A stretch of DNA of 47,230 nucleotides from Thomasclavelia saccharogumia DSM 17460. Its GTDB lineage: Bacteria; Bacillota_I; Bacilli_A; Erysipelotrichales; Coprobacillaceae. A program made the position numbers and the translations under genes. How positions within the stretch are numbered: the stretch's first letter is position 1; the number at the start of each line of letters is the position of its first letter. Of this stretch, positions 8,903 through 13,893 are shown one piece after another. The notes beneath the pieces are model-generated. The model did not search any database. It saw nothing but the letters and a program-made list of their open reading frames with translations, and was not told the origin of the DNA. The DNA is taken from contig NZ_JMLH01000020.1 of NCBI RefSeq assembly GCF_000686665.1, forward strand, positions 1 to 47,230. Reading direction: 5' to 3'.

Positions 8903-10568
<1,666 letters not shown>

Positions 10569-10576
10569 AATACCTC

Positions 10577-11845
10577 CTATATTCTAGTAATTACACCATC
10601 TAAAACATGATATTTTAATACACCATAACATTTTGTATCCAAAAATGGGGTATTAATTGATTTAGATTTAATATTATCTTTAGTTATTGTATATTCTTCT
10701 TCAAGATCGAAAACAGCTAAATTTGCTTTATAGCCAATTTCTAAATCATGATCGATCTCAATTACTTTGGCGGGATTTAATGACATACAAGTCAATACTT
10801 TTTCTAGAGGAATAAGCCCTTTTTTTACAATATATGTATACATTAAACTAAAGGCATGCTGATTCCCAATTATTCCAAATGGGGCTTTATCGATCGGTTT
10901 ATTCTTTTCAGCAATTGCATGTGGTGCATGATCAGTTGAGATTACTGTTACAGTACCATCATTGATGCCAGCAATCAAAGCCTCTAGGTCCTCTTTACTT
11001 CTTAATGGCGGATTCATTTTATAATTAGGATTAAGATTTTTAATATTATCATCCGTTAAAATCAGATGATGCGGACATGCTTCACCACTAACAAGGCTAT
11101 TTGTCTTACGCGCTTCTTTTAAAGCCGCCACAGTTTCTTTAGTAGAAATATGACAAATATGATAGCGATTTCCTATTTCATCAGCAAGTTTTAGATCACG
11201 GACTACATGATTATATTCAGAAGCATTATTAATTCCTACTAAATCATGATCTTTAGCATAATTTCCCTCATTGATACATGCTCCCGGCTTTAATTCACCT
11301 TCATCCTCACAATGGGCTACAATAATTGAATCATTTGTCTTGGCAGCTTTCATTGCTGCTTCCATCATATCTTTTGACTGAACTCCTTTACCATCATCCG
11401 AAAAACCGACAACGATCGTTTCTTTACTATTTGCATCGAAATCCACTAGTTCCTGTCCTTTTAGCTCTTTAGTAATTGCGCTATATGTATAAGTATGTAC
11501 TTTCGCATCTTTTTCAACCCGTCTTTTAAAATCTCTGATCGTCTCGACATCATCCATGCAGGGAATCGTATTAGCCATTGCTACTAAATGCGTATAGCCA
11601 CCATATTTTGCTGAATTAGTCCCTGTTGCAATTGTTTCTTTATGCTCAAAACCAGGTTCTCTTAAATGTACATGGATATCGACAAATCCAGGAGTTAACA
11701 ATTTATCAGCAATATCAATTATTTCATCAGCTTGATCAATATTTTGTTTAATATCAATGATTTTATCATTTTCAATCAGAACATCTAACTTCTGGATTTT
11801 ACCATGATAAAAAACATTACCATTTTTAAATAATACTTTAGTCAT
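10577..11845 (-). CDS. pyrC: Dihydroorotase (PyrC, multifunctional-type/class I)
   Basis: A 422-residue amidohydrolase that closes carbamoyl aspartate to dihydroorotate. The metal-binding DIHVHLREPGFEHKE is near residue 55, further His ligands lie in HCEDE and YHICHISTKE, and the catalytic Asp is in STDHAPH. The C-terminal LAVFDLEEEY strand is typical of the beta-sandwich of this superfamily. The start overlaps the end of pyrB. I place it at the ATG of ATGACTAAAG (11845), since the in-frame GTG just before has no better Shine-Dalgarno; the choice between the two is uncertain by one residue. Second gene of the pyr operon. Confidence 0.93.
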   Translation of the reverse strand: MTKVLFKNGNVFYHGKIQKLDVLIENDKIIDIKQNIDQADEIIDIADKLLTPGFVDIHVHLREPGFEHKETIATGTNSAKYGGYTHLVAMANTIPCMDDVETIRDFKRRVEKDAKVHTYTYSAITKELKGQELVDFDANSKETIVVGFSDDGKGVQSKDMMEAAMKAAKTNDSIIVAHCEDEGELKPGACINEGNYAKDHDLVGINNASEYNHVVRDLKLADEIGNRYHICHISTKETVAALKEARKTNSLVSGEACPHHLILTDDNIKNLNPNYKMNPPLRSKEDLEALIAGINDGTVTVISTDHAPHAIAEKNKPIDKAPFGIIGNQHAFSLMYTYIVKKGLIPLEKVLTCMSLNPAKVIEIDHDLEIGYKANLAVFDLEEEYTITKDNIKSKSINTPFLDTKCYGVLKYHVLDGVITRI

Positions 11846-12710
11846 CACTTAACACCCGATTCAATAATGCCATTCTCACAAAAACTCCATTAGCCATCTG
11901 TTTAAAAATTCGACTTTGTTTACATTCAACGATTTCATCAGCAATTTCAACATTACGGTTAAATGGAGCTGGATGCATTATGATTGCCCTTTCTTTCATT
12001 TTATTAACTCTTTCACGATTTAATCCGTATAATTCATGATATTGATCAGTAGTTAATTTCATTAAACTATGATGTCGTTCATGTTGAACTCTAAGCAGCA
12101 TAACAATATCAACCTCTGGTAAAATCGTATCAAAGTCAACATAATTATACCCTGGTTCTTCAAATTCACGCGGACCGCTAGTATAAACTTCCATTCCTAA
12201 ACGTTTCATAATTTCATAGTTACTATGAGCTACTCTTGAATGAACGATATCTCCAACAATTACTATTTTTAAACCCTCAAAATGTCCAAATTCTTCACGA
12301 ATCGTCATTAAATCCAATAAAGATTGGCTAGGATGATTTCCTGTTCCATCACCACCACTAACGATAGGAATCGTAATTCGATCAACCAGATCTTCATAAT
12401 AATTTTCTTTAGGATGTCTGATAACGACTGCATCACAACCGATCGACTCAAAAAATTTTACAGTATCATATAGAGTTTCTCCTTTTTGAACACTTGAGTT
12501 AGCTGTTTCAAAATTTTGTGTTCGACAGCCTAAATTATAAGCCGCTTTATCAAAGCTATAATGCGTTCTTGTTGATGGTTCAAAAAATAAATTTGCGACA
12601 ACTTTTTTGCCATTATAATCTACTTTTTTCCCTTTTTTAAATTCTTCTGCCTCATCTAAAATCAAATTAATATCAGTTGTTGAAAAATCTTTTAATGTAA
12701 ATATATTCAT
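11838..12710 (-). CDS. pyrB: Aspartate carbamoyltransferase catalytic subunit
   Basis: A 290-residue enzyme joining carbamoyl phosphate and aspartate, the committed step of pyrimidine synthesis. The carbamoyl-phosphate loop FFEPSTRTHYSF is near residue 45, GGDGTGNHPSQSLLDL near 122, and the aspartate-side loop MLLRVQHERH near 205. It is slightly shorter than the usual 300-310 residues but all blocks are present. No regulatory pyrI follows, consistent with a Bacillus-type unregulated trimer. The Shine-Dalgarno GGAGG lies directly after a leader terminator hairpin, so expression is probably set by attenuation. Confidence 0.95.
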   Translation of the reverse strand: MNIFTLKDFSTTDINLILDEAEEFKKGKKVDYNGKKVVANLFFEPSTRTHYSFDKAAYNLGCRTQNFETANSSVQKGETLYDTVKFFESIGCDAVVIRHPKENYYEDLVDRITIPIVSGGDGTGNHPSQSLLDLMTIREEFGHFEGLKIVIVGDIVHSRVAHSNYEIMKRLGMEVYTSGPREFEEPGYNYVDFDTILPEVDIVMLLRVQHERHHSLMKLTTDQYHELYGLNRERVNKMKERAIIMHPAPFNRNVEIADEIVECKQSRIFKQMANGVFVRMALLNRVLSDD

Positions 12711-12723
12711 CGTTTTCCTCCAT

Positions 12724-12773
12724 AAAAAATACCTCTAACGAGGTATAATTGGGAAATAATATTCATTATACCC
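12724..12773 (-). promoter_or_regulatory. pyr operon leader with competing terminator and antiterminator hairpins
   Basis: In the minus-strand RNA, arms 12740-12746 and 12729-12735 form AUACCUC-GUUA-GAGGUAU followed by six U: an intrinsic terminator ending about 5 bases before the pyrB Shine-Dalgarno. The 5' half of that stem is also complementary to an earlier segment: 12765-12772 pairs with 12742-12749 (GGUAUAAU with AUUAUACC), which would prevent the terminator. A third hairpin (GGG..AUAAU..AUUAU..CCC, about 12751-12773) competes with the antiterminator. I saw no convincing PyrR binding loop, so the signal (PyrR, UTP-dependent pausing or other) is unknown. The hairpin would also stop read-through from coaD. 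Confidence 0.65.
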
Positions 12774-12799
12774 AGTTGATGTATCTTTTTTCTTTATTC

Positions 12800-12828
12800 A
12801 TCATATCAAATATCATTGATTTTGACAA
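12800..12828 (-). promoter_or_regulatory. pyr operon promoter
   Basis: On the minus strand TTGTCA (12823-12828), a 17-base spacer and TATGAT (12800-12805) form a near-consensus sigma-A promoter. The implied leader is about 80 nt long before pyrB. The promoter lies just downstream of the coaD stop codon. Confidence 0.8.
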
Positions 12829-12854: not shown

Positions 12855-13340
12855 TCATCCATTTAATTTCTTTTGTAAAGCTTCTTCTACACAAGCTGGT
12901 ACTAAGCCAGCAACATGCCGCTTATGACTAACCATTTCTTTTACTGCTGAAGAAGAAATAAATGAGTGTGATGGTTTAGTCATTAAAAATACCATATCTA
13001 CATCTTTGTCCAAATACTGATTAGAAAAAGCTAACTGTAATTCATATTCAAAATCCATCGTTGCTCTAATTCCGCGTACTAAGATTTTTGATCCAACATC
13101 TTTAGCATACTCTACTGAAAGTTTATCCGATGAATCAACGATTACATTATCAAATTGTTGGCATACTTTTTTTAATAATTCTTTTCTTTCAGCAACTGTA
13201 AAAAGCCCCTGTTTATTAGGATTAATACAAATCGTCACATACAAAATATCAAACATTCTGCTGGCCCGTTCAATAATATCCAAATGTCCATTAGTTACAG
13301 GATCAAATGTTCCTGCATATACTGCAATATTTTTCTTCAT
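12855..13340 (-). CDS. coaD: Pantetheine-phosphate adenylyltransferase (CoaD)
   Basis: A 161-residue nucleotidyltransferase that makes dephospho-CoA from 4'-phosphopantetheine and ATP. AVYAGTFDPVTNGHLDII at the N-terminus carries the T/HxGH-type site, and LVRGIRATMDFEYE and SSSAVKEM are the other conserved blocks. A longer frame exists, but the ATG at 13340 is preceded by AGGGGTAAG, and with that start the length fits the family (about 160) and the gene lies 4 bases after the rsmD stop. Adjacent rsmD-coaD is a classic Firmicutes pair. Last gene of the UPF0223-ftsW-ylb operon. Confidence 0.95.
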   Translation of the reverse strand: MKKNIAVYAGTFDPVTNGHLDIIERASRMFDILYVTICINPNKQGLFTVAERKELLKKVCQQFDNVIVDSSDKLSVEYAKDVGSKILVRGIRATMDFEYELQLAFSNQYLDKDVDMVFLMTKPSHSFISSSAVKEMVSHKRHVAGLVPACVEEALQKKLNG

Positions 13341-13344
13341 ACTC

Positions 13345-13893
13345 TTACCCCTGATATTTAAATACATTCAATGCTGTAATACCATAGTCATTTTTTTTAA
13401 GCAAATTTATTTGCTCAAAAGTTTTAAAAACAACTTCTTTTAATTCTTCTACCATAATAATACAGCCCTCATTCAACATTTCATTCTCGATTAAAAATTC
13501 TAATATTCCATCAACCAATCCTCTGCCATAAGGCGGATCTAATAAAACCAAATCAAACTTAATTCCTTCTTCACTAAATTTTTTTAATGCTTTTCGATAA
13601 TCAAGTTTATACACTTTAGCATTTTCAATCTTTAAAGATCTAATATTTTCTCTAATTATTTGAAAAGCAGCGTATTGATGATCAACACTATAAAGAAAAT
13701 CACAGCCCCTCGATAAAGCTTCTATTCCTAATCCACCGCTGCCTGCAAATAGATCTAATACATTTCCCCCTTGAAAATAAGGTCCGATAATATTAAACAT
13801 ATTTTCTTTATTGCGATCTGTTGTGGGACGAGTTAGATTTGATTTTACCGTTTTTAACTGTCTACTTTTATATTTACCTGCTATTACTCTCAT
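13345..13893 (-). CDS. rsmD: 16S rRNA (guanine966-N2)-methyltransferase RsmD
   Basis: A 182-residue Rossmann methyltransferase. The N-terminal MRVIAGKYKSRQLK matches the start typical of the family (RIIGG..kGr.L). NVLDLFAGSGGLGIEALSRG is the SAM-binding motif, and LVLLDPPYGRG is the N6/N2-MTase DPPY motif. It methylates G966 of 16S rRNA in the 30S head. It lies 8 bases after ylbF and 4 bases before coaD, as in Bacillus (ylbF-ylbG-ylbH-coaD) except that ylbG is absent. The Shine-Dalgarno AGAGGG supports the start. Confidence 0.95.
   Translation of the reverse strand: MRVIAGKYKSRQLKTVKSNLTRPTTDRNKENMFNIIGPYFQGGNVLDLFAGSGGLGIEALSRGCDFLYSVDHQYAAFQIIRENIRSLKIENAKVYKLDYRKALKKFSEEGIKFDLVLLDPPYGRGLVDGILEFLIENEMLNEGCIIMVEELKEVVFKTFEQINLLKKNDYGITALNVFKYQG

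Follow-up and report, generated by a model that had tools for sequence, protein, structure and literature searches.

A candidate PyrR-independent attenuator at pyrB of Thomasclavelia and its possible link to UTP supply

The attenuator of E. coli pyrBI works through UTP-dependent pausing and a translated leader peptide, and at pyrG of Bacillus subtilis CTP-dependent reiterative initiation controls a terminator. Closest to the locus described here are the PyrR attenuators of the B. subtilis pyr operon (RF00515), found at the same gene and with an upstream hairpin, an antiterminator and a terminator in the same order. Pyrimidine control in Gram-positive bacteria is commonly attributed to PyrR (e.g. 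PMC13328217). In the literature that we searched, which covered few subscription papers, we found neither a PyrR-less pyr attenuator of Firmicutes nor data on pyr transcription in Thomasclavelia.

The subject of our analysis is the leader of pyrB in a 47,230-nt piece of the genome of Thomasclavelia saccharogumia DSM 17460 (the window, by which we mean the whole stretch of DNA that was analysed). Unlike the RF00515 attenuator, this leader is about 83 nt long and comes without a PyrR loop, a PyrR protein or a match to RF00515 (E<=10). Nearly the whole of this gut Firmicutes family appears to have lost PyrR together with its RNA loop, and several genera keep the switch at pyrB, which raises the testable question of an attenuator that works without its regulator and reads nucleotide supply through polymerase speed.

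Structure of the pyrB leader

Read directly from the sequence, the promoter and the 83-nt leader sit on the minus strand between coaD and pyrB, and pyrB is followed 3' of the switch by pyrC, pyrK and pyrD (Table 1). A near-consensus promoter had been proposed on first reading of this DNA and it was found, with 10 of 12 consensus matches and TG before the -10; the same promoter occurs in the other Thomasclavelia genomes, and it stands 20-30 nt upstream of the three hairpins described below. Transcription would start at about 12793, judging from promoter spacing. The leader is short, as had been said, and its length is corrected from about 80 to about 83 nt, with the pyrB ATG at 12710. A promoter that starts downstream of the antiterminator arm would have spoken against the original prediction; the 5' arm lies, on the contrary, about 20 nt downstream of the putative start.

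Table 1. Positions of the pyrB leader elements and of the neighbouring genes in the window.
Feature	Position	Strand	Basis
pyrB promoter, -35 TTGTCA (12828-12823), 17-nt spacer, extended -10 TGATATGAT (TATGAT 12805-12800)	12800..12828	(-)	sequence
pyrB leader RNA, putative start ~12793 to pyrB	12711..12793	(-)	start from promoter spacing; fold z -3.2
P0, putative anti-antiterminator, TGGG-ATAAT-(gaat)-ATTAT-CCCA (12774-12750), flanks (AAC)/(ATT)	12747..12777	(-)	predicted fold
Antiterminator (AT) 5' arm, GGGTATAAT	12765..12773	(-)	pairing and conservation
Antiterminator (AT) 3' arm, ATTATACCT, overlapping the terminator 5' arm	12741..12749	(-)	pairing and conservation
Intrinsic terminator T, ATACCTC-GTTA-GAGGTAT (hairpin 12746-12729) and U6	12724..12746	(-)	1 found, 0.1 expected
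pyrB Shine-Dalgarno, GGAGG	12717..12721	(-)	sequence
pyrB, aspartate carbamoyltransferase catalytic chain	11838..12710	(-)	NF002032, 355.6 bits, over cutoff
pyrC, dihydroorotase	10577..11848	(-)	TIGR00857, 377.8 bits, over cutoff
pyrK, dihydroorotate dehydrogenase electron transfer subunit	9813..10568	(-)	NF000799, E 5e-82, below curated cutoff
pyrD, dihydroorotate dehydrogenase	8903..9820	(-)	NF005574, 440.7 bits, over cutoff
coaD, upstream of pyrB	12855..13367	(-)	TIGR01510, 189.5 bits, over cutoff

The leader can form three hairpins, P0, AT and T, which cannot all form in full together, and the attenuation geometry of the original prediction, with three mutually exclusive hairpins before pyrB, was in this way borne out. 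P0 is a simple hairpin of 9-10 bp, predicted in all nine Thomasclavelia leaders (for L011 with the register shifted to GGTA/TACC), and the pairing of the two AT arms extends over 9 bp. T is the sole terminator-like site within 800 nt, against 0.1 expected. Folding of the leader, which had been suggested as a check, gave a z of -3.2, with 1 of 200 shuffles equally good, and when the upstream leader was shuffled 2000 times with dinucleotides preserved, 6 shuffles had a complementarity to the terminator arm as good as that of AT; for single distant leaders (L014, L022, L026) the shuffle tests for AT were not significant taken alone. With a terminator between promoter and gene, and a conserved AT that shares a terminator arm beyond chance, the element would, from its sequence, be classed as an attenuator.

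Conservation of the switch and loss of PyrR

The leader with P0, AT and T is kept in all nine Thomasclavelia genomes (T. cocleata DSM 1551 is among the named relatives), in one copy per genome and at pyrB only. The arms GGGTATAAT, AATTATACCTC and GAGGTATTTTTT are unchanged in 7 of the 7 relatives compared, in which the 5' part of the leader is 64-95% identical; the arms of AT and T are under strong selection, because they remained identical while the fourfold-degenerate sites of pyrB diverged to 30-68% identity in the same relatives. The loops do vary, that of T between GUUA, GCAA and GAAA and that of P0 between GAAT, AAAT, TAAT, AGAAT and AGAT. Immediately 5' of the AT arm every leader of the genus has the pentamer AACTG, which AT does not need. 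A search of 315 genomes of the order for the general pattern GGTAT-ATACC-GGTAT-U4 gave matches in 19; pyrB leaders of Coprobacillaceae account for 14 of these, and the other five are near the level of the reversed-pattern control (2 matches in the same genomes). No comparable switch was seen in the upstream regions of pyrF.

The same layout with changed arms was found in five further genera without PyrR, thus in six together with Thomasclavelia. The arms read GGTATAT/ATATACC/GGTATAT in G012, G028 and G026, GGTATTT/ATATACC in G019 and GGTATGT/ATGTACC in G021, and G010 has a longer version. Covariation among related pyrB leaders, the comparison advised with the original prediction, was uninformative inside the genus, where no AT or T pair varies, and between genera only a few changes lend it support. 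Pairing is preserved by A-U to U-A at the seventh arm position of AT, by U-A to U-G and A-U to G-U in G021, and by C-G to U-A at the loop-closing pair of T; this support is modest since mismatches, one U-U and a few A-G, also occur. Each genus has its own P0 hairpin, and thus the genera share no one conserved part that could do the sensing.

According to our profile search, PyrR stands over the cutoff in 1 of 37 Coprobacillaceae genomes (G016), whereas the sister family, sampled with 23 genomes, has it in 18. The best PyrR (NF003549) match in the genome of the window reaches 37 bits against a cutoff of 138, and this protein is a hypoxanthine phosphoribosyltransferase over its own cutoff (TIGR01203, 195 bits), on which ground we rejected the idea of an overlooked PyrR. 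A hidden or degenerate PyrR loop was likewise rejected: RF00515 has no match at E<=10 in the window, in agreement with the earlier remark that no such loop is recognisable, nor does it occur in the Thomasclavelia genomes. The leader is not a PyrR attenuator; loop and protein are absent, and the arrangement of antiterminator and terminator at a pyr gene is present.

Within the Coprobacillaceae the PyrR RNA element is found in G016 only, and there a CCTTT/AAAGG stem with the PyrR loop TAGTCCGAGAGGCTA stands immediately before GGGTATAAT, which is followed by ATTATACCTTC and then by GAAGGTAT-U8. The antiterminator GGGTATAAT/ATTATACC of this full PyrR version is identical in sequence to that of Thomasclavelia, and since G016 joins the PyrR loop to it, PyrR and loop appear to have been lost and AT and T kept, so the pyrB leader probably descended from a PyrR-type attenuator. 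A tree of PyrB joins G016 as sister to genera 1, 3 and 4 (support of 85/78 for this join, with long branches), and a second clade holds the other PyrR-less leaders; because of this position PyrR with its loop was probably lost at least twice, with the AT/T core retained in both lines. The simplest reading of the sequences would be an ancestral PyrR switch, the leader being lost later in g4, g7 and g17, where it is absent altogether. Together these genomes make a natural series on how regulatory RNAs change their input: G016 with PyrR, Thomasclavelia and five genera with none, and g4, g7 and g17 with the leader lost.

As the switch is under selection, and regulator and binding site are gone, pyrimidines have to be sensed otherwise or expression is set to a fixed level. 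The latter, which we regard as unlikely, would be a device or relic without any signal, where transcripts of coaD end at the terminator and a constant share of pyrB transcription is let through, with AT only tuning it. The lack of a sensing part common to the genera speaks for it, as do the position of pyrB after coaD on the same strand and the family members g4, g7 and g17, where there is no leader and pyrB still follows coaD. The earlier suggestion that the hairpin may end the coaD operon has the geometry right (on the same strand, the upstream coaD has its end at 12855), and coaD transcripts would also run into this terminator, but that is not its sole role, because a promoter lies between and the antiterminator is conserved too. 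Against a fixed level stand this dedicated promoter, the recurrence of AT and T in six PyrR-less genera, and the antiterminator arms, which are as strictly conserved as those of the terminator, something that a plain terminator would not need.

Another protein, RNA-binding or uracil-nucleotide-binding, might have replaced PyrR and stabilise P0 when pyrimidines are plentiful, which would make the leader a PyrR-like attenuator with a new regulator. We consider this rather unlikely, if slightly less so than a fixed level, though it accords with PyrR attenuation that looks ancestral in the order, with the joining of the PyrR loop to the same AT and T in G016, and with the invariant AACTG that AT does not require. 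Protein sites usually keep their sequence or shape, however, and P0 varies in its loops within the genus and differs wholly between genera; moreover, the only PyrR relative that we found is the hypoxanthine phosphoribosyltransferase.

Possible input of the switch

Our tentative proposal, in which we place somewhat less than even confidence, is a PyrR-independent attenuator of pyrB-pyrC-pyrK-pyrD on which UTP acts via polymerase speed. P0 would form first on the emerging RNA and hold the antiterminator 5' arm. With the polymerase passing over the terminator region at normal speed, T would form beside P0 and transcription would stop. When UTP is short, the polymerase would slow at GUUAGAGGUAUUUUUU, with the antiterminator 3' arm just emerged, P0 could rearrange into the more stable AT, the terminator 5' arm would be taken up and pyrB would be transcribed. 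We infer both this order of folding and UTP as the signal that acts via elongation speed. Such a leader would resemble E. coli pyrBI in sensing UTP through the speed of the polymerase, and would differ from it in that an antiterminator hairpin, and not a ribosome, blocks the terminator.

The predicted energies have the order of a race. In 16 of 16 leaders AT is 0.8-4.5 kcal/mol more stable than the best fold that lacks it as long as the terminator 3' arm is absent. After this arm has emerged, the combination of T and P0 is favoured by as much as 7.3 kcal/mol or comes within 2 kcal/mol of AT. We also built a kinetic model, a coarse co-transcriptional master equation with ViennaRNA barriers and assumed rate constants, in which slower U addition raised the share of AT in most leaders at suitable rate constants. 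In L004 this share went from 0.01 to 0.54, Thomasclavelia responding only with strong slowing and fast refolding, and in L016-L018 from 0.4 to over 0.9; AT rose with mild slowing in G012, G026 and G028. There was almost no response in L010 and L012, L022 was nearly always in AT with almost full readthrough, and the response of L026 reversed at the fastest setting. This crude model suggests that the sign can be right and says nothing of the magnitude, for the size of the effect depends wholly on the assumed rate constant.

An outcome that hangs on antiterminator refolding within the time given by the polymerase is also what is described for kinetically controlled riboswitches such as the Mesoplasma 2'-dG riboswitch (PMC5838219), unlike which the pyrB leader has no aptamer domain that we could see. 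In another RNA, refolding into an antiterminator takes about 1 s, comparable with the synthesis of about 24 nt, but there NTP from 0.05 to 2.3 mM left the folding outcome unchanged with E. coli polymerase (PMC5838219). Slow U addition also prolongs the time spent at the U-tract, which might favour termination.

The original prediction had left the input between nucleotide-dependent pausing and another ligand. Pausing or elongation stays the best guess, and a small ligand is disfavoured because the P0 loop varies, P0 differs by genus and no other aptamer-sized stretch is conserved. It is accordingly very improbable, in our opinion, that P0 with an internal loop acts as a very small riboswitch for a pyrimidine nucleotide: it is placed where an aptamer would act, and UMP or UTP would be sensible signals for pyrB, but it is a simple hairpin and no family of Rfam, the curated aptamers included, matches the leader.

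A leader peptide with coupled transcription and translation, as in E. coli pyrBI, is also hardly to be expected at pyrB. That layout is seen at carA of the same genomes, and a chance ORF is suitably placed in some leaders (in L004, with its ATG at leader position 33); L004 and some relatives also have an ATG that overlaps the -10, upstream of the putative start, in a frame that is not conserved. Across the pyrB leaders, however, neither a start codon nor a Shine-Dalgarno nor a frame is conserved, and L006, L007, L009 and L011 have no ORF of at least 5 codons that starts before the terminator. As there is no conserved leader ORF, the pyrB leader is not pyrBI-like and we rejected a leader peptide there. 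With B. subtilis pyrG the proposed mechanism would share protein-free nucleotide sensing at a Gram-positive pyrimidine gene; unlike pyrG, the initially transcribed region is A/G-rich without a G-run start, and this AAAGAAA-like region of Thomasclavelia, its start position being predicted, speaks against control of the pyrG type.

In its broadest form, our UTP-speed proposal would describe a protein-free and ribosome-free UTP sensor of about 70 nt, a race of two hairpins left from a PyrR switch, in a family where elongation speed would report UTP at pyrB as well as at carAB; this we offer as a possibility that is on the doubtful side.

Leaders of other pyrB genes and of carA

A different PyrB, about 36% identical, is encoded at L093-L104 (genera g6, g8, g11, g13, g15, g16, g18 and g20), where the leaders are very short and no attenuator of the pyrB type was seen. 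Different leaders also precede pyrB by about 90 nt in two unclassified Bacilli MAGs (L088 and L089), with overlapping terminator and antiterminator candidates, ACTAGT/ACTAGT vs ACCAGT/ACTGGT, and neither draft genome has a PyrR over the cutoff. For L014 (G010, genus g3) we predict a pyrB transcript that starts about 120 nt before the gene, near GGGUAAAGAAACCCC, the only case of a start near GGGU, and CCCC there could also pair with the antiterminator arm GUGGGU; in this one genome the start is reminiscent of the G-stuttering at pyrG start sites.

The true look-alike of pyrBI is the carAB leader of the same genomes. The region upstream of carA in ten Coprobacillaceae genomes, among them that of the window, has a strong Shine-Dalgarno (AAAGGAATGAG or a similar sequence), a leader ORF 21-32 codons long (MIVFEESKKVNQKALFSYFYCC in the genome of the window) and, after a U-rich stretch, a terminator of the ACATATCA/TGATATGT-U7 kind (loci L108, at about 1353-1500 of G000:C2, L111, L109, L106, L113, L112, L114, L115, L116 and L107). 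Of the 40 nt that lead up to the terminator 18-25 are U, and the stop of the ORF abuts the terminator 5' arm in 9 of the 10; in G026 the frame runs through. By its layout the carA leader looks like a pyrBI-type UTP attenuator, in Firmicutes mostly without PyrR, and it supports, without proving, UTP sensing through transcription itself in Coprobacillaceae. Between the Shine-Dalgarno region (AAGGAATGAG..) and the U-rich stretch (..CTCATTTTT) a pairing of 8-15 nt is predicted, a complementarity beyond that of shuffles (p below 0.05) in 7 of 9 leaders tested, so that perhaps the U-rich stretch also masks the ribosome site of the leader under fast transcription. The pairing partner changes between genomes, as GAGGCU/AGCCUUAUU, GAGAC/GUCUC and GAGAAA/UUUCUC.
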